Part shown: positions 19,709-30,248 of the stretch, piece after piece
How the letters are laid out: every line of letters starts with the position of its first letter
Numbering within the stretch: the first letter of the stretch is position 1
DNA from: Streptomyces sp. NBC_00569
GTDB lineage: Bacteria > Actinomycetota > Actinomycetes > Streptomycetales > Streptomycetaceae
Assembly (NCBI RefSeq): GCF_036345255.1
Contig: NZ_CP107783.1
Coordinates: forward strand, 6,184,001 to 6,248,000
Direction: 5' to 3'
Length of the DNA stretch: 64,000 nt
Translations under genes and position numbers: made by a program
Notes under the pieces: generated by a model
The model's input: only the letters and a program-made list of their open reading frames with translations
Told to the model about the DNA's origin: nothing
Databases searched by the model: none

Positions 19709-20479
19709 CTACGAGACCGAATCGGGCGCCGCGGAGTGAGCGCTTTGAGCGGACTTCCGGATCACGGACCGCAGGGCGTCTGGAGTGCGCCAGGATTCTC
19801 CCTGGTGACCCTTGTGGCACATGCGGTGGCAGTTGGCACACAGGAAGGCGAGATCGTCGAGCTTGGTCTCGGTCGGCCCGGAGATATGGAGGGGCAGGGT
19901 GTGGTGAACCTCGATGTACCCGTCCCCGAGGTCGCCGTAGAGGCGCTTGAAGTCAAAGGAGCAGACCTCGCACCGGATGGCTTGACCTTGACGGCGAGCT
20001 TGCCGGATCTTGCGGTTGCGGAGGCCCCGGTCGCGCTCCCTGTACAGCGCCCACCGGGTCAGCAGCCGTCCTTCCGGCGCAGTCGTCTCACCGTCGTCGC
20101 CGGTTTCGTCGGGCTGAGGCGGGATCCGGTGGAGTTCTCCAGATGCGATGCCGAGGCGGATAGCTTCAGCGGAAGCCAGCATCTCTGTCGGGTGTTCCAG
20201 GAAGTCATTGACGACATCCCGCGTTGGCCGGCCGCCTCGCGTGGCCGCGCCTCGGTAGTCGGGATGGGCAGTCGCGATGTCGGTGGTCTTACGGCTGACG
20301 CTATTGGGCGAGCGGAATCGAGGGTCGCCGGCGGCGTCATGATTGGTCGGGAGCGATCGGAGCAGGTCGGACAGTTCGAGTACGCTCGCGTCGCCCTGAC
20401 GGAGTTCGTGCCACCCGTTGTGTACGACGAGCGCACAGGCCAGAAGCAGTTCGTCCCTGGTCCAGTCGCTTCGCGTCAT
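19709..20479 (-). CDS. HNH endonuclease
   Basis: A 256-residue protein. The N-terminal ~130 residues (WTRDELLLACALVVHN, RSPNSVSRKTTDI, FLEHPTEMLASAEAIR) form a domain often seen ahead of HNH nucleases in restriction loci. Residues ~170-230 form a zinc-type HNH: CEVCSFDF, YIEVHHTLPL, and LCANCHRMCHK. The layout fits a McrA-like, modification-dependent or simple restriction nuclease. It diverges from the cytosine methyltransferase with 161 bp between. It may be part of the same defence island or an independent unit. Confidence 0.85.
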   Translation of the reverse strand: MTRSDWTRDELLLACALVVHNGWHELRQGDASVLELSDLLRSLPTNHDAAGDPRFRSPNSVSRKTTDIATAHPDYRGAATRGGRPTRDVVNDFLEHPTEMLASAEAIRLGIASGELHRIPPQPDETGDDGETTAPEGRLLTRWALYRERDRGLRNRKIRQARRQGQAIRCEVCSFDFKRLYGDLGDGYIEVHHTLPLHISGPTETKLDDLAFLCANCHRMCHKGHQGESWRTPDALRSVIRKSAQSAHSAAPDSVS

Positions 20480-20640: not shown

Positions 20641-21828
20641 ATGACCAGCACTGAGCGGGAGTTCACTTCGATCGAGATCTGCGCCGGCGCGGGCGGCCAA
20701 GCTGTTGGGCTCCATGCGGCTGGATTCAAGCACCTCGCCCTCGTGGAGATCGACGCGCACGCGAAGGCGACGCTCGACAAGAACATCGCAGTGCGCCCGG
20801 AGTGGGACTGGGAGCGGGAGCACTGCGACGTCCTGGAGGCGGACGTCAAGGAGTTCGAACCGCACAGAGACCTCACAAAGGGTGGCAAGAGGCTTCCGAA
20901 GCGTGAGCTTGATCTCTTGGCCGGAGGGGTTCCGTGCCCGCCGTTCTCACATGCGGGCAAGCAGCTGGGCAAGGACGATGAGAGGGACCTCTTCCCGCGA
21001 ATGCTGAAGCTCGTCGAGCTTCTAGAGCCTCGCGCGGTGATGATCGAGAACGTGCGCGGCATCAAGGACCCGAAGTTTGCCAGCTACCGCGACTCAATTG
21101 AGGCCCGGCTGCAGGGCGGCCGGTACCTGGGTGATGACGGCCAAGAGGTAACAGATGAGGGTCTCGGTTACACGGTGTGTAAGTGGGACGTTCTTGAGGC
21201 TAGTGACTTCGGAGTTCCGCAGCTCCGGCCGCGAGCCATTCTTGTGGCCTTCCGGAACGACGTACTCAAAGATCTGAAGTACGAGTGGCCGACCCCCACA
21301 CACGAGGAACCGGTCAGTGTGGCGGACAAGCTTCAGCCGACGATGCACGATCGCTACGAGCCGTACTTTGAGGGGATTCACGCGCAGCGTGCCCGCGACG
21401 CGTACGACCGCTGGCTCGACACGGCGACGAAGCGTGACCTGGAGCTGAAGGGCAAGGGTGGCGGCATCGCGCCCACGCTGGTCGGCGGGTCGAAGAAGCA
21501 CGGGGGCGCGGACCTGGGCCCCAGCCGAGCTAAGGCGGCCTGGAAGCAACTCGGTGTCTCAGGCCTTGGAGTCGCAAACGACCCCGAGGTGTGCAAGGAG
21601 AAGGGGACTGAGGACCGAGACCTCTTTGGTGACGCTGGCCCCATGCTCACTGTCCAGCAGGCGGCGATCATCCAGGGGTTCCCTGCGACATGGGAGTTCA
21701 CTGGGGGCAAGACGGCGCGCTACCGGCAGGTCGGAAACGCGTTTCCCCCGCCCGTTGCTGAAGCGGTTGGCCGTTCGATCATCGAGGTTCTGCGGGCCGC
21801 CCGCGAGCGGGACGTGGAGAAGAGCTAA
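20641..21828 (+). CDS. DNA (cytosine-5) methyltransferase
   Basis: A 395-residue m5C methyltransferase. Motif I is EICAGAGGQAVGLHAAGF, motif IV with the catalytic Cys is GGVPCPPFSHAGKQLG, motif VI is IENVRG, motif VIII is QLRPRAIL, and motifs IX-X include RQVGNAFPPPVAEAVG. The segment between VIII and IX (~240-340) should be the target-recognition domain. It lies 8 bp from the convergent Vsr gene, and NaeI-like nucleases follow on the other strand. It probably protects the host at the sites cut by one or both of these; the target sequence cannot be read from here. Confidence 0.95.
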   Translation: MTSTEREFTSIEICAGAGGQAVGLHAAGFKHLALVEIDAHAKATLDKNIAVRPEWDWEREHCDVLEADVKEFEPHRDLTKGGKRLPKRELDLLAGGVPCPPFSHAGKQLGKDDERDLFPRMLKLVELLEPRAVMIENVRGIKDPKFASYRDSIEARLQGGRYLGDDGQEVTDEGLGYTVCKWDVLEASDFGVPQLRPRAILVAFRNDVLKDLKYEWPTPTHEEPVSVADKLQPTMHDRYEPYFEGIHAQRARDAYDRWLDTATKRDLELKGKGGGIAPTLVGGSKKHGGADLGPSRAKAAWKQLGVSGLGVANDPEVCKEKGTEDRDLFGDAGPMLTVQQAAIIQGFPATWEFTGGKTARYRQVGNAFPPPVAEAVGRSIIEVLRAARERDVEKS

Positions 21829-21836
21829 CCCGCCTG

Positions 21837-22286
21837 CTACGCCTTGCCGGATCGCCGCCGCGCCACTTCGTCAGCGATCCGCGAGGCGCACTCTTCCGAT
21901 GGCTCGTGCTCCCAGAATCGAAGCACGAGCCATCCTGCTTCGGCGAGCTGCTGGTCGGTGTCCCGGTCGCGAGCCATGTTCCGGGCCACCTTGTCCGACC
22001 AGTAGCCGGGATTGGTCTTTGGCGGGACATAGTGCTCGGGGCAGCCATGCCAATAGCAGCCGTCGATGAAGACGGCGACCTTGGTAGGGCGGAAAACCAG
22101 ATCAGCAGTGCGGCGCAGATCGGGAAGCGGCTTGGCAGCGACGCGATAACGCAGCCCCCGGGCGTGCACAAGTCTGCGGACTAGCTGTTCGGGCTTTGTG
22201 TCCCGGCTGCGAATGGCTTGCATGTTGCGGCGACGGGCTGCAGATGAAGCCCACGAGCCCTCTGGTGGATTCCAAGGTTCGCTCAT
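21837..22286 (-). CDS. Very short patch repair (Vsr) endonuclease
   Basis: A 149-residue protein with the Vsr core: RRRNMQAIRSRDTKPEQLVRRLVHARGLRYRV, then DLRRTADLVFRPTKVAVFIDGCYWHGCPEH (catalytic Asp and the zinc-site Cys/His residues), and DQQLAEAGWLVLRFWEHE. Vsr nicks at T:G mismatches produced when methylated cytosine deaminates, so it fits beside an m5C methyltransferase. ATG 22286 begins the conserved domain. It follows the NaeI-like genes on the same strand with a 34-bp gap and meets the methyltransferase tail to tail. Confidence 0.93.
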   Translation of the reverse strand: MSEPWNPPEGSWASSAARRRNMQAIRSRDTKPEQLVRRLVHARGLRYRVAAKPLPDLRRTADLVFRPTKVAVFIDGCYWHGCPEHYVPPKTNPGYWSDKVARNMARDRDTDQQLAEAGWLVLRFWEHEPSEECASRIADEVARRRSGKA

Positions 22287-22320
22287 GATTTGTGATTCCG
22301 TGTCGGCTACGCTAGGGACT

Positions 22321-23286
22321 TCATTTTTTCTTCCCGGGAAGGGAAGGGCCCGGCTCGCAGCGTTCGTCGTCCGTCGCAAGCACCCATTCTCTGTCGTCCA
22401 GGAAGGTGCGAGGCCGATCTTTATGCCATGGCTTGGCTTCGATGACCCGGAAGCTAACCAGTTCCCCGTTCTTAGGCATCCGAGGCACAGGCACCTTCAA
22501 AGCGTCCAGAACCATTTTATGCGTCTTCCAGTGTCCGGCAATAAGAATCCCCTGCTCCCTTAGCACAGTCCGCGCCCGCCCCTTCCCTTCGCGGGCTCGT
22601 GCCATTCCGTCCAACTGCTGAGCCACCGTGTCTGTGGTGTCGCGGTCGATCAGGCGTTGCTGCACTCGCTCGAAGAGTCGATTGATGCGCTCCTGTCCAG
22701 ATTGCGACTCATTGCAGATGTAGTCTTGGTCTTCAGAGGGCAGAGAGAGCAGGATGCTCTTAGGGAAATCCGTCTCCTTGCATAGCCACTCGATATTCTT
22801 CTTTCCGGCGGCGGAAACGCCCTTCTTTCCATCCTTATTGGGCTTTCCCGTAAGGAGTCCGGGGAGAGCCCTCAGGATTCCTGCGCTGAAGATTTCTTTG
22901 GATTCGTCGACACTTACGAGCAGACAGGCCTTCCCGACGGCTTCTGTTGGGATCGCCCAGTTGGCGCCGATCGTGAACTTGCAGTCTACTTCGTGTCCGG
23001 ATATTAGATAATCAAGGGGCTTCTTCTGGCCTCCCTCTGTCTTTTTTCCTCGGGGGATCGAAAAGGCGTCCTGTAGAACGATCTCGACTTTTGTGCCGAT
23101 ATAAGATTTCTCGTTCTTTGTTAGCTGCCCGATTGAATACCGCCCCGTTCTGCGGCCGTCGAGGACTTCATTGGCGGCGATTCTCACTGAATCTCTGAAC
23201 TTTGCCGCGTAGTTTTTATGGCTGCGGAACCATGTGAGCGCTTCCTGGATGGCGGTATCTTCGGCTGCCGAATATTCGATACTCAT
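22321..23286 (-). CDS. NaeI-like type II restriction endonuclease (A)
   Basis: A 321-residue protein related to NaeI (317 residues). The N-terminal nuclease domain has KNEKSYIGTKVEIVLQDAF and DYLISGHEVDCKF, placing the Glu, Asp, Asp and Lys of the NaeI active site. The C-terminal half (VLREQGILIAGHWKTHKMVLDALKVPVPRMPKNGELVSFRVIE) corresponds to the NaeI CAP-like effector-binding domain. At the position of NaeI Leu43 (L-x-D-G) it has V-L-D-G, so no ligase-like Lys. It lies 27 bp after the second NaeI homologue. Sampled lines are about 48% GC, far below the flanks, suggesting recent transfer. Confidence 0.85.
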   Translation of the reverse strand: MSIEYSAAEDTAIQEALTWFRSHKNYAAKFRDSVRIAANEVLDGRRTGRYSIGQLTKNEKSYIGTKVEIVLQDAFSIPRGKKTEGGQKKPLDYLISGHEVDCKFTIGANWAIPTEAVGKACLLVSVDESKEIFSAGILRALPGLLTGKPNKDGKKGVSAAGKKNIEWLCKETDFPKSILLSLPSEDQDYICNESQSGQERINRLFERVQQRLIDRDTTDTVAQQLDGMARAREGKGRARTVLREQGILIAGHWKTHKMVLDALKVPVPRMPKNGELVSFRVIEAKPWHKDRPRTFLDDREWVLATDDERCEPGPSLPGKKK

Positions 23287-23313
23287 AAAGATGTTACCCC
23301 GTCCCGAATCTGG

Positions 23314-24363
23314 TCATGCTGTTCGTGTGTGGGAGGGTAGTTCGGGGGCGGGTGTCACGGGATCGACAGGGTCTGCGACAATCCATGATTGCCCTTTGAT
23401 TATGGCGCGATTTGAATCGTTAGAGCTAGAAGATTCGACCACTCGTGCGCTTACAAATTCACCCTCTCGAGGAACAGGGACTCCGAGTTGGTCGGCGATT
23501 TTCTGGTGAGTCTTGTAATCTCCCATGATGATGATTCCCTCGCTTTGGAGGGCGGACCGTGAGCCGCCGTTGCCGCGCACGCGCTTCATGTAGTCCTTCT
23601 GCTGTGCCACGGTGCGTACCACGTTCCGGCCGATACGCCGCTTCTGTGCTCGTCTGAACAGCTCGTTCAGACGTTGCTGGCCAGACGTTGAGGCAAAAAC
23701 CGCCTCTCGGTCTATATCGTCCATGTGTAGCAGCACGTTCTCGGGCAGCTCCGCGTCATTCCACAGCCACCAGATCTTGTCCCGGTGAGCAGCCTTGACG
23801 GTCAGCTTCATATCTCGGTTGTTGCCTGCGTTCAGCCACTCGCGCTGAACGCGGAGCAGCCCCGCGCTCCATCGGCTCTTGTAGTCGTCTGCCCATACCA
23901 GCAGGCAAAGGTGCCCCATCGCCTCAGGCGGGATCATCCACCCACCGAACTGCTGGGAATATTTGCAGTCCACGTCTGCGCCGGCGATCTGATAGTCCAT
24001 GTCGAGTCCGTCATCGAACTTGAACTCGCGCTGCAGGTTGATCTCTACCAAGGTCCCTGCGTGTGTCTTCTCCGTTTTAAAGAGGGTCTTCCAGTCGTAG
24101 CGACCAGTGGCCTCGCCGTTGAGCAGCATGTCAATGGTGTCGCGAAGAACGGAGGCGAATCGGTGCCCCTCAGGGTCGAGGGCGCGGATCCGCTCATAGA
24201 CCTCGCGCATCTCGGTGTCCTGATTGGCCAGATCGTTGACGGCGATGCGACTCGCTGCTGCAGCATCCTCGAAGAAGGGCAGCAAATCCCTGCTCCAGTC
24301 GTTGAGTTGGCGCACCCGTAGGTGTGCGGTCAGTGGCCTAGTACGTATCAATGATGGCGGCAT
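23314..24363 (-). CDS. NaeI-like type II restriction endonuclease (B)
   Basis: About 349 residues and closer to NaeI than its neighbour: FKTEKTHAGTLVEINLQREF, DYQIAGADVDCKYSQQFGG, WMIPPEAMGHLCLLVWAD, then the effector-binding half (SALQSEGIIIMGDYKTHQKIADQLGVPVPREGEFVSARVVE). All four acidic/Lys active-site positions are present. The position equivalent to NaeI Leu43 is Leu (L-L-N-G). The start is uncertain: ATG 24363 overlaps the Z1 gene by 26 bp; GTG 24315 would give a length nearer to NaeI. It is co-transcribed with Z1 upstream and the other NaeI-like gene downstream. Confidence 0.9.
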   Translation of the reverse strand: MPPSLIRTRPLTAHLRVRQLNDWSRDLLPFFEDAAAASRIAVNDLANQDTEMREVYERIRALDPEGHRFASVLRDTIDMLLNGEATGRYDWKTLFKTEKTHAGTLVEINLQREFKFDDGLDMDYQIAGADVDCKYSQQFGGWMIPPEAMGHLCLLVWADDYKSRWSAGLLRVQREWLNAGNNRDMKLTVKAAHRDKIWWLWNDAELPENVLLHMDDIDREAVFASTSGQQRLNELFRRAQKRRIGRNVVRTVAQQKDYMKRVRGNGGSRSALQSEGIIIMGDYKTHQKIADQLGVPVPREGEFVSARVVESSSSNDSNRAIIKGQSWIVADPVDPVTPAPELPSHTRTA

Positions 24364-27313
24364 CGGGCAAGGTCGAGTCCTTAGCCCGGAAGCGTACGAG
24401 CTGGCGCTTGGAGTTGATCGCTGCACTCGGCGGGATCAAGGTGAATGCCATCGTGACTTGGGATGCGCCCACTGTTCCTGTGGACGCGGTGGCCCTCACC
24501 TCAGAATCGGTGGCGGCTTCAATCACTGGGTAGAGCAGGACGACGCCGCGGTGTGCGCCCATGTCCGCTGCCATCTCGGCAGTCGCCTCTGTACCGGCAT
24601 TGTCAATCAACTGCTGGGCGTAGGTGCGGTGCTCGAGACCCGAGATGCGACCGAAAGAGACCTTTGCAGCCTGGCGGCTTCGACGGAACAGGGAGAAGGG
24701 GCCGTGGCCCAGGACAGTGGCCTCGACGCGATGGCGTTCCGTGAGGTGGGGAGCGATGACGAGCCAGTCGTCAACCTTCGCGAGCCGCCCGTCCAGCTGG
24801 GAGAGATAGGTGAGGTGCGGCGTGAAGAGGCCCTTGATCTCCCATTCCAGCGCGCCGAGTACCCCGAGAAGCTGGGCATGGGGCACCACCGTTGAGGCAG
24901 CCTGAAAACTACGGCGCGGTGTTGCCTCCTCCGGCAGAAGCTGACATGTCCTTGTAGAGCTATCGCTGAGCGCGGCGAGCACTGGCTGCCAGCGTTCGGT
25001 ATTGCGTGAGGCAGTCCTGGAGTCCAGGGGGTAAGCGGCGGGTTCGATGGGCTTACCCGGCGACCGCACCTCCACCAGTTCCGCGTTGAACATCTTGTTA
25101 CGAGCCGCCGGCTTCAGCCACGGGAGGTGTTGGGAGACGAGCGGCGGTACCTGGGACGGGGTCAGTTGGGGGTGGCCGTCGACCAGTTCCGCGTACCGCG
25201 ACAGCTGTTCGCGGAACAGTTCCTCGTCGCGGCACACCGCCTCGAACGCCTCGTACAGGTCGGCGGTCTTCTCCCGCCCGTACGTCTCCTCGCGGCCTAT
25301 GTAGAGGCGGACCAGATCCCGGTAGCCGGGCCGGAAGCCGAACCAGCGGCCCATCTGCATCAGGGTGTCCGCCTGCTGTGTCGTGCGGCGGTAGTACGTG
25401 ATCGTGAGGCCCTCGACCGTGAAGCCGCGGGACAGCTTCGTGCCGCCCACGAGGATCTTCCAGACGTTCGAGCTGTCGAAGTCGAGGTCCAACTGGTCGA
25501 AGTAGCGGTCCGAGTCGCCGTTGACGACGATCACCGGAGTGCCGGTGGAGCCGATCAACTGGCGTGCGCGGCTGACGTGCTGGCGCAGTTCGTCGTACGA
25601 GGCGGGGCAGGGGAGTCCGTCGGCGCGGGCGTCGCTCACCGCGGCGAAGTCGGACTCCCACAGCGCCGCCAGGCGGGCGTGGCCCGGCGCGGACGTCTGC
25701 GGGGCCTCGTGCCACATGGTGTTGATGCGCAGCGCCAGCTTCGCGTGGTCGTCCATCTTCACCGACTCGTGGACGAGCATCGTGTGGTGGCGGAAGTTCT
25801 TCTCCGGGACGCCCGCGGCCAGGCGGTACAGCTTCAGCGCTCCGGACAGCACGAACGCGTCCATCGCCTCCTGCAAGCGGTCGCCCGTGGAGTCGTAGAT
25901 GCCCCGGACATGCGCCTTCTCCTGGGAGTTGGCGACCGTGCGCTCCCCGTCCTCCACGGGTGAGTCGAGGTCGTGGAAGTCCTGTACGCCCATGTAGCCG
26001 GTGGGGCGCGGGAGCGAGATCAGGAAGTCGCTGGGGAAGATGTCCTCGCCGTCGCTGGGGTCCACGAAGACGTTCGCGAAGGGGGTTGCCGTGTAGCCGA
26101 CGTACTGGGCGCGCGGGAGAAGGGTCAGGAGCTGCGATATCAGGCTGTTGATCGCCGTACGTTCGGTGCGGCCCTGTTCCCACTTCTTCGGGTTGGACGT
26201 GTTCACCGACGCCTGGTCCGACTCGTCGTCGATGATCAGCGCGGGGAGTTCGCCGAGGATGCCGTGGATCTGCTTGAGGTCCTTGACCAGCTTGGTCAGG
26301 ACCGCCTTGTTCTTCTTCACGACCATCACGCGGGCCGCCGCGTGGTGCAGGTTCGACGGGTCGTGGAGCGGGAGCGTCCGCTCGCGCTTGTCGTACTCGA
26401 GAGCGCGGATCCCCGTCGCGAGGCTCTTGTAGTCCTTGTCGCGCGTGGTGAGCCGATCGATGTCGAAGGAGCCGCGCGTCGACGGGCGGCCCCCGTGGCT
26501 CACGAAGTCGTCCCACTCGGCGTCGTCGCCCACGTAGTCGATGCCGACCAGCGAGTCGACGTCCGACGGGTCCGCGCCGCCCAGGATGTTCTCCTGGCCG
26601 ATCAGCTCCATGTCGATGCGGCGCTGGGTCTGTGCGCGCAGCATGTTGAGTGTGCCGCCGAGGACGATGACCAGGCGGTAGCCCGCGTCGATCGCCTTGG
26701 CCGCCACACCCGTGAAGTTCGCGGTCTTCCCGGACTGTACGTAGCCGACGACCAGGCCCTTCGCCTGGCGGGCGGCGGGCTGTTCCGGGTTGGACAGGCG
26801 CTCGACGACCGCGCGGCTCGCCCCGTCCAGGCTCGCGATCGCCGCGTCCGACCAGCCCTTGTCGCGCAGCTTGCGCTCGTACGCCCGCCAGTAGAAGGTG
26901 CGGGCCGCCGCGCGCTCCTGCGTGTACCAGGGCGTGAACTCCCGCGTGATCACGGTGGGTCCGGCGATCACCGACACGCGTACGGCCTCGTCCAGGACCT
27001 TGCGCAGGTCCTCGCCGAGGCGCAGCCGCTCGTACACCGCCACACGGCGTGCGAGTGTGCGCGGCGCGGTCTCCGGGGACCAGAGCGGGGACTCGGCGAA
27101 GTCCCAGTCGTTGAGGTGGCGGTTCCACAGCGCGAGCAGCGCGTCGTCCCCGCCGACGAGACGCGCACGGAACGTCTCCTCGGTCAGGTCCGCGTCGGGA
27201 TGGTCCTCGTCGGCGGCGAGCGCGGCCCAACGGGCGAAGTGCCGGGGGCTGTTGACCATTCCGGCCAGGGCGGAGGTGTGGATCTCCAGGAGGATGTTCG
27301 CGTCGTCGCTCAT
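24338..27313 (-). CDS. Z1-domain superfamily II helicase
   Basis: A 991-residue protein. Walker A-like VVGYVQSGKTANFTGV lies near residue 190 and the helicase motif II-like block LIIDDESDQA near 360. Motif III-like YVGYTATPFANVFV follows, then the Z1 region (KILVGGTKLSRGFTVEGLTITYYRR, MQMGRWFGFRPGYRDLVRLYI). Z1 helicases occur in restriction-type defence operons with MORC/MutL-like GHKL ATPases and DNA methylases (Iyer, Abhiman and Aravind 2008). It lies 78 bp after the ATPase gene and overlaps NaeI-like B. The last ~250 codons (24.34-25.05 kb) have lower GC than the rest. Confidence 0.9.
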   Translation of the reverse strand: MSDDANILLEIHTSALAGMVNSPRHFARWAALAADEDHPDADLTEETFRARLVGGDDALLALWNRHLNDWDFAESPLWSPETAPRTLARRVAVYERLRLGEDLRKVLDEAVRVSVIAGPTVITREFTPWYTQERAAARTFYWRAYERKLRDKGWSDAAIASLDGASRAVVERLSNPEQPAARQAKGLVVGYVQSGKTANFTGVAAKAIDAGYRLVIVLGGTLNMLRAQTQRRIDMELIGQENILGGADPSDVDSLVGIDYVGDDAEWDDFVSHGGRPSTRGSFDIDRLTTRDKDYKSLATGIRALEYDKRERTLPLHDPSNLHHAAARVMVVKKNKAVLTKLVKDLKQIHGILGELPALIIDDESDQASVNTSNPKKWEQGRTERTAINSLISQLLTLLPRAQYVGYTATPFANVFVDPSDGEDIFPSDFLISLPRPTGYMGVQDFHDLDSPVEDGERTVANSQEKAHVRGIYDSTGDRLQEAMDAFVLSGALKLYRLAAGVPEKNFRHHTMLVHESVKMDDHAKLALRINTMWHEAPQTSAPGHARLAALWESDFAAVSDARADGLPCPASYDELRQHVSRARQLIGSTGTPVIVVNGDSDRYFDQLDLDFDSSNVWKILVGGTKLSRGFTVEGLTITYYRRTTQQADTLMQMGRWFGFRPGYRDLVRLYIGREETYGREKTADLYEAFEAVCRDEELFREQLSRYAELVDGHPQLTPSQVPPLVSQHLPWLKPAARNKMFNAELVEVRSPGKPIEPAAYPLDSRTASRNTERWQPVLAALSDSSTRTCQLLPEEATPRRSFQAASTVVPHAQLLGVLGALEWEIKGLFTPHLTYLSQLDGRLAKVDDWLVIAPHLTERHRVEATVLGHGPFSLFRRSRQAAKVSFGRISGLEHRTYAQQLIDNAGTEATAEMAADMGAHRGVVLLYPVIEAATDSEVRATASTGTVGASQVTMAFTLIPPSAAINSKRQLVRFRAKDSTLPDAAIIDTY

Positions 27314-27391
27314 TGCGGGCGGCCCTTCTGCGGTCGGGAAGCGCGGGGGACGGTGTCGTGCGAGGGGGAAGAGGCGGAAGGGGGAGGGGCC

Positions 27392-28948
27392 TCAGGCCGT
27401 CTCGCCCCGCACGCGCCTCTCCCGCTGCGCGCCCACCGACGCCAGCAGGATCGTGTTCCAGTAGTCGATCCGGTCCTGCCGTGTCTTCTCCCAGCGGCCG
27501 AGGCCGAAGCAGTCCTCCAGGAGCAGGTACAGGAGGGTCTTCGTGACCGGGGCGTCGTTCGAGCCGCCGCGGCGGCCGTCGTTGAAGTCGTCGCGGAACG
27601 CCTTGTTCAGGACGATGACGTTCGTCTCCCGGTCCAGCTCGAAGAAGCGGTCGTCGGGGAGCGTGCGCCAGGTGAACTCGATGGGGTCCTCGCCCGGCTT
27701 CTCGGGGAGTTCCTCCCTGACGACCCGCTTGACCCTGGGGTCGAGACCCTTGCCCGGTGGCGTCACGGGCTTGCGTACGATCTCGGACCGCTTGGCGCCG
27801 TCCCGGTAGGCGGCCTCCGCGTCGGCCTGGTACGTGGGGAACGTGGTCCCGGCCGCATCGAGCGCCTTCTCCACCCCCAGCGTGAACGCGGGCGTCACGG
27901 TGACGCCTTCCTTCTTCACGTCGAGGCTGAACACGTTGTTGGTGCCGGCGGGCAGGTCGACCGCCACGCGCGCCAGGACGAGGTGGCTCTCCGGGTTGCG
28001 CAGACCGTTCCAGCCGCCCGCCTGTACGAGGCGGTCGTTGCGGTAGAAGTAGAAACCCTGCCGTTCGGCGAGCGCCCCGATCTGGCGGAATCCCGCCTGC
28101 TTCGACTTCGCCGGCCAGATGTGTGTAGTGAGTCCGACCTCGCCGACCCCCTCCACCGGGGCCGAGAACTTCCGCGGATAGCCCTTGCGCCCCGGCACCT
28201 TGTAGCCGAACGGATCCAGGGCCTCCACCGCGATGTGGTCGAGCTCCTCGCCGAGGCCGGTCCCCGCGCCGCCCACGTCCCACACCGCGATGTCCAGCTT
28301 CAGGCCACGCTGGAGGAACCGATGCAGGTACAGGCCGAGATGGGTCTCCAGACGGGATATCGCCTTCGAGAGGAACTGGTCACTCTGGCCGCGCGCGACC
28401 GTCTCGAACGCGCGCACCCGGTCCCAGCGCACCACCGTGCCCTGCCACTCGATGATTCCGTCGTAGCGGTCGACGAGGTCCTGTGCGTACCGCGGGTCGA
28501 CGGTGTCGCAGCGGAAGCCGTCCTCGACCCCCTCGGCCGTGAGGCGGCGGCCGGCGGCGCGGCTGCGCCGGGTGCGGCTGACCACGGTGAGCGAGGACGC
28601 GTGGGACAGGGACGCCGCCTTCAGCCCCGTGCCGTACATGCCGAGCGCGCCGTCGCCGTACTCCCGGCGACGGCCGACGGTCATGGCGGCGTCGAGTCCG
28701 GCATCGTCCATGCCCTGGCCGTTGTCGATGATCAGCAGGGTCAGGATGCGGTCGGCGTCGCGCAGGAAATGCACGACGACCTTGTCGGCTCCGGCGTCGA
28801 TCGAGTTGTCGATCAGGTCGGCGACAGCGACCTCGAAGCCGTATCCCTGATTGGACAGGGCCTTGCCGTAACCGGAGTCCGGCGGCAGGTGTGTGCTGCC
28901 CGTCGTGGGTACGTCGTACTGCCACGCAGCACCGGATTCGTAGGGCAT
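27392..28948 (-). CDS. MORC/MutL-like GHKL ATPase of a restriction system
   Basis: A 518-residue protein. The Bergerat fold is at residues ~35-140: VAVADLIDNSIDAGADK (N box), LLIIDNGQGMDDAGLDAAM (G1), and ALGMYGTGLKAASLSHA (G2). An S5-like second domain includes GALAERQGFYFYRNDRLVQAGGW, which contains a conserved Lys/Arg-rich loop. A third, helical region continues to the C-terminus. This is the MORC-like group found beside Z1 helicases in restriction operons, where ATP-driven dimerisation is thought to clamp DNA. ATG 28948 has GAGGAA just upstream. It heads the Z1-NaeI-NaeI-Vsr unit. Confidence 0.88.
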   Translation of the reverse strand: MPYESGAAWQYDVPTTGSTHLPPDSGYGKALSNQGYGFEVAVADLIDNSIDAGADKVVVHFLRDADRILTLLIIDNGQGMDDAGLDAAMTVGRRREYGDGALGMYGTGLKAASLSHASSLTVVSRTRRSRAAGRRLTAEGVEDGFRCDTVDPRYAQDLVDRYDGIIEWQGTVVRWDRVRAFETVARGQSDQFLSKAISRLETHLGLYLHRFLQRGLKLDIAVWDVGGAGTGLGEELDHIAVEALDPFGYKVPGRKGYPRKFSAPVEGVGEVGLTTHIWPAKSKQAGFRQIGALAERQGFYFYRNDRLVQAGGWNGLRNPESHLVLARVAVDLPAGTNNVFSLDVKKEGVTVTPAFTLGVEKALDAAGTTFPTYQADAEAAYRDGAKRSEIVRKPVTPPGKGLDPRVKRVVREELPEKPGEDPIEFTWRTLPDDRFFELDRETNVIVLNKAFRDDFNDGRRGGSNDAPVTKTLLYLLLEDCFGLGRWEKTRQDRIDYWNTILLASVGAQRERRVRGETA

Positions 28949-29161: not shown

Positions 29162-30208
29162 TCAGCTCTCCTCCGCCCCATGGCACTCCCCATACCCCCG
29201 CCTGGACCCGCACCAGCACTCCGCGCCCCGCTCCGGTGGCCACGGGATCGCTCGGCCTCGGGCCGCCAGTGTCGTGGCGTACTGCGGCAGCAGCGACGCG
29301 TCGGTGGGGGGCGAGGACTCCGACGCCGCGAACGCCTCGTACGACGGGACCGTGCCCGCGACGATGCCGAGGTTCGGTGTGCCGGAGGCCGCGAGTTCGC
29401 GGAGGGAGGACTCTATGGTGGTCAAGTGCTCTGTGTCGGACGGGTATTCGGCGGAGAGGGAGGGGTACGCGGCCAGGAGTTCCGTCAGCTCCGTCGACGG
29501 CCAGTGCAGGACCGCCACCGGGAACGGGCGGGACAGTGCCTGCCGGTACGAGCCCAACTCGGCGCGCAGGCGCAGGATTTCGGCCCTCAGTTCCGCCGGG
29601 TTGTCCGAGCCGAGCGCCCACGTCCGGTTCGGGTCGTGGAGTTCGTCCAGGGTCACCTCGGCCTTGTTGATCCGGTCGGCGAGCGCGTCCCAGTCGTCGT
29701 GCTCCGCGCCGATCAGGCGGCGTACGCGGTGGCGGCCGAGGAGGAGCGGGTGCGTCTCGTACGGCGGGTTCGCGCGCTCGGCCTCCGGCAGGAGCAGCGT
29801 CAGGGCCTCGGTGAAGGACTCGTGCGCCGCTTCGAGCTCGTCGTGCGACTCCAGGGCCTCCGCCACGATCACGTAGGCGGCCGGGTCCCTCGGGGCCGCG
29901 GTCCGGATGCCCGTGATGATCGCGCGGGCCTCGGCCTCGTGGCCGTACTCCCACAGGTTCGCGGCCATCAGGGCCTTCACCAGATGGGGCTGCTGCAGCG
30001 CGGACGGCGGGCCTGCGAGCAGGCGGTCGTACAGCGCGGCCGCGCGTGGGCGGGCGTCGGCCAGTTCGTAGTGCGCCGCGGCCTGGAGGAGCAGCTGCTC
30101 GGCGTCCTCCGGGTACAGGCCGGCGATGCGCTCCAGGCGCTCGGCTTCGGCGATGTGGTTGACAGGGTCTACAGGCTCGGCGGGCGTAGCAGGCGTGTCG
30201 GGGCGCAT
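29162..30208 (-). CDS. TPR-like protein with C-terminal SEC-C zinc motif
   Basis: A 348-residue protein. Residues ~20-160 contain TPR-like helical pairs (LERIAGLYPEDAEQLLLQAAAHYELADARPRAAALYDRLL, AYVIVAEALESHDELEAAHESFTEAL). The C-terminus has ECWCGSRRGYGECHG, a SEC-C-type zinc motif (CxCGS...C-H). SEC-C motifs occur in SecA and in many uncharacterised proteins and bind zinc, often for protein contacts. It lies 213 bp upstream of the MORC-like ATPase on the same strand. It may be a defence-island component, but the gap and its normal GC leave this open. ATG 30208 avoids a non-conserved extension. Confidence 0.75.
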   Translation of the reverse strand: MRPDTPATPAEPVDPVNHIAEAERLERIAGLYPEDAEQLLLQAAAHYELADARPRAAALYDRLLAGPPSALQQPHLVKALMAANLWEYGHEAEARAIITGIRTAAPRDPAAYVIVAEALESHDELEAAHESFTEALTLLLPEAERANPPYETHPLLLGRHRVRRLIGAEHDDWDALADRINKAEVTLDELHDPNRTWALGSDNPAELRAEILRLRAELGSYRQALSRPFPVAVLHWPSTELTELLAAYPSLSAEYPSDTEHLTTIESSLRELAASGTPNLGIVAGTVPSYEAFAASESSPPTDASLLPQYATTLAARGRAIPWPPERGAECWCGSRRGYGECHGAEES

Positions 30209-30248
30209 GGGTGACACCGTACTGCCGACCCCCCTCACCGGCGCCAGG

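Follow-up and report, generated by a model that had tools for sequence, protein, structure and literature searches.

Positions 20,641 to 28,948 of the 64,000-nucleotide stretch of Streptomyces sp. NBC_00569 analysed here (contig NZ_CP107783.1, 6,184,001 to 6,248,000; hereafter the window) raise the question of why one restriction island should carry two NaeI-like nucleases. In this soil bacterium the island is predicted to form a DNA-defence operon with two ATP-using proteins ahead of two distinct nucleases, against both of which a single methylase would protect. A preliminary description had listed a GHKL ATPase, a Z1 helicase, two NaeI homologues and Vsr facing a cytosine methyltransferase; profile matches and motifs confirm this gene set (Table 1), and the interpretation of a restriction island that accompanied it is partly supported overall.

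Two NaeI-family nucleases of distinct clades

Both nucleases, here NaeI-1 and NaeI-2, exceed the cut-off of the PF09126 profile (411.8 and 239.7 bits, respectively; cut-off 25), and their genes are separated by 27 bp. Each aligns with NaeI over nearly its full length and keeps E70, D86, D95 and K97, which we take to be the catalytic residues of NaeI and which are conserved in 109, 112, 110 and 112 of 112 aligned rows, respectively. In a tree of these 112 rows, NaeI-2 and nine other proteins form their own clade apart from NaeI-1 (support 100/98), distinguished at 20 positions from 18 chosen NaeI-1 relatives, and the four residues are retained in 10/10 clade members. A separate clade that preserves these residues makes it most likely that NaeI-2 is an active, specialised second cutter; the same separation argues against a recent duplicate. 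NaeI-1 is sister to its counterpart in S. alboflavus (79% identity), and NaeI-2 groups with P0001 and then with the S. alboflavus NaeI-2 (73%), which suggests that the two have moved as a pair.

A recurrent slot for a second nuclease

The position between NaeI and Vsr, occupied by NaeI-2 in the window, is a slot that recurrently takes a second nuclease. Besides the window and S. alboflavus, 12 loci have a same-strand nuclease there, nine from the NgoMIV family (L034, L035, L036, L039, L040, L042, L043, L191 and L193) and three NgoMIV-like. The L036 protein was identified as NgoMIV by PF09015 (2e-51) and PDB 1FIU (3.7e-39), the others by our own profile; the L043 gene is broken across two frames (169 + 83 aa). 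The three NgoMIV-like proteins belong to an unnamed family (Table 1) for which Pfam gave no match in the two members scanned. Its profile matched that of NgoMIV with 93.8% probability (E 1.7e-7), the common stretch lying around SKWT-RSDR, and a search against the PDB reached NgoMIV only at E 0.069; the family is thus a predicted remote relative of NgoMIV. Separately, the NaeI islands of L036, L037 and L039 have a module of three genes inserted between those for Vsr and the methylase; it encodes an SNF2-type helicase (its gene also found in L182 and L189), a protein of ~470 aa with a ParB-like appearance on visual inspection, and a small HNH-like protein.

With every nearby arrangement included, a second nuclease is present at 23 of the 92 loci (17 NgoMIV-family, 3 NgoMIV-like and 3 NaeI, the latter being the window, S. 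alboflavus (L028) and L047, entered by hand), and none was marked beside NaeI in the remaining 69. Because an opposite-strand gene separates the two NaeI copies of L047, direct tandems number only two (the window and S. alboflavus), in keeping with the earlier remark that such a tandem is unusual.

NaeI-1 and NaeI-2 could also combine as unlike subunits into a heteromer whose recognition site is asymmetric or otherwise changed, as in BbvCI (named in a reference title) and Bpu10I. The adjacency of the genes, their joint presence in S. alboflavus and the near end-to-end alignments with intact catalytic residues would fit this arrangement, but the NgoMIV-type proteins that fill the same slot have no detectable similarity to NaeI (no match between the two profiles; hhalign probability 0.2%) and so could not be NaeI subunits, and the 69 loci with no marked second nuclease also speak against it; we consider it unlikely. 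Still less probable is a recent, redundant duplication or a passenger gene in decay as the origin of NaeI-2, as its guanine-cytosine content (55%, the lowest among eight genes measured) and the broken L043 gene might suggest, since its clade is distinct, keeps the catalytic residues in all ten members and, given 15 database protein clusters with 56% identity or higher, is maintained.

Methylase specificity and a possible shared site

An active NaeI-2 would share the island's methylase with NaeI-1. We compared the specificity region of this methylase with the corresponding region of 152 further methylases in the fetched loci. The nearest 26 (67–83% identity) all belong to NaeI loci, among them loci whose slot is vacant and loci with every type of occupant observed, and the best from a non-NaeI locus reaches 57%. 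Identity is 70–81% at six of the nine loci with NgoMIV in the slot, 55–56% at two and 43% at the last; it is 69–72% at the three NgoMIV-like loci and 83% in S. alboflavus. NaeI cleaves GCC/GGC. For NgoMIV, the cleavage site is given as G/CCGGC in an excerpt of PMC4081073, where the NaeI site is evidently misprinted. The simplest reading of these comparisons is that the window-type methylase group protects GCCGGC, which both nucleases would read. Two observations weigh against extending this more widely: in this region, 60 of the 96 methylases found at NaeI loci share <45% identity with the window's, and at NgoMIV loci where the nuclease is not in the slot the figure is 13–43%. NaeI and NgoMIV therefore also co-occur with other methylase types.

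Gene content of the island

In the MORC ATPase, the GHKL boxes read DLIDN, DNGQGM and GMYGTGLK, and GFYFYRNDRLV (residue 304) matches GhXhhpXXRhl, the S5 motif that defines MORC proteins. The Z1 gene encodes GYVQSGKT, DDESD and GYTATP, and its DTLMQMGRWFG (residue 649) fits DThhQXuRhFG. Vsr contains ADLVF and DGCYWHGC, presumably its catalytic stretches, and the methylase has PCPPFS, ENV, QLRPR and GNA, which we assume to be its functional motifs.

Table 1. Features of the island and the unnamed slot nuclease family (ORF, open reading frame)
Feature	Position	Strand	Evidence
HNH protein, divergent from methylase	19709..20479	-	PF01844 9.9e-07
C5-cytosine DNA methylase, convergent with operon	20641..21828	+	PF00145 9.3e-54; TIGR00675 over cut-off
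Vsr, very-short-patch repair nickase	21837..22286 (longest ORF to 22379)	-	TIGR00632 134 bits, cut-off 98
NaeI-2, diverged NaeI-family endonuclease, second-nuclease slot	22321..23286	-	PF09126 5.3e-71; 1EV7 4.3e-42
NaeI-1, first nuclease, NaeI-family endonuclease	23314..24315 (longest ORF to 24426)	-	PF09126 1.8e-123; 1EV7 5.2e-93
Z1 helicase (name from the preliminary description)	24338..27313	-	PF10593 1.6e-53
MORC ATPase (GHKL + S5 module)	27392..28948 (ORF reaches 28966)	-	PF13589 3.9e-21
Unnamed NgoMIV-like nuclease, ~324 aa	L030:4996-5970, L032:2385-3359, L053:7968-8954		carry SSKWTWRSDRGTEAAQ stretch; relatives P0090-P0209

The HNH protein, whose family occurs in 42 of 106 NaeI loci, is a probable accessory and candidate member of the island; it matches the McrA-like 6GHC weakly (1.7e-5) and is possibly a third, putative nuclease. 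Upstream lies a SEC-C motif protein (29162-30238; family in 49 of 106 NaeI loci), which perhaps marks no more than the border of the inserted segment.

Relation to known systems

NaeI, a Type IIE enzyme (PDB 1EV7), cleaves GCCGGC with two-site activation. Both window nucleases align with it over almost their whole length; the island differs from the NaeI restriction-modification system in having two ATPases and a nuclease from a further NaeI clade, and its site is putative. It also differs from MZA (mzaABCDE), since the MzaB and MzaC equivalog scores (118 and 277 bits) lie below the cut-offs of 850 and 1500, and scans of six window proteins gave no match to MzaD or AIPR (MzaE). The three-gene systems with a PLD and B3 nuclease include no MORC among those genes. 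For DISARM, DrmA and DrmB were absent from the matches listed for the same six proteins; the methylase list covered 25 of its 57 matches and included DrmMII. In S. alboflavus, by contrast, DrmA- and DrmB-type genes (5.7e-206 and 2.1e-74) immediately precede the orthologues of the two NaeI genes, with no DrmC match among the four genes scanned there.

A second natural pairing of NaeI genes with a DISARM-like core is found on the mobilizable Rhodococcus opacus plasmid pROB02 (L203, NC_012521.1), where NaeI, HNH, Vsr and methylase genes adjoin DUF1998, helicase and NERD genes. In L071 and L085, MORC lies near a DrmA-like helicase (162–165 bits) and a NaeI-domain gene, possibly a MORC-DISARM hybrid. 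Relatives of the island suggest that its two ATPases, as a pair, and its second nuclease are each exchanged in the manner of cassettes.
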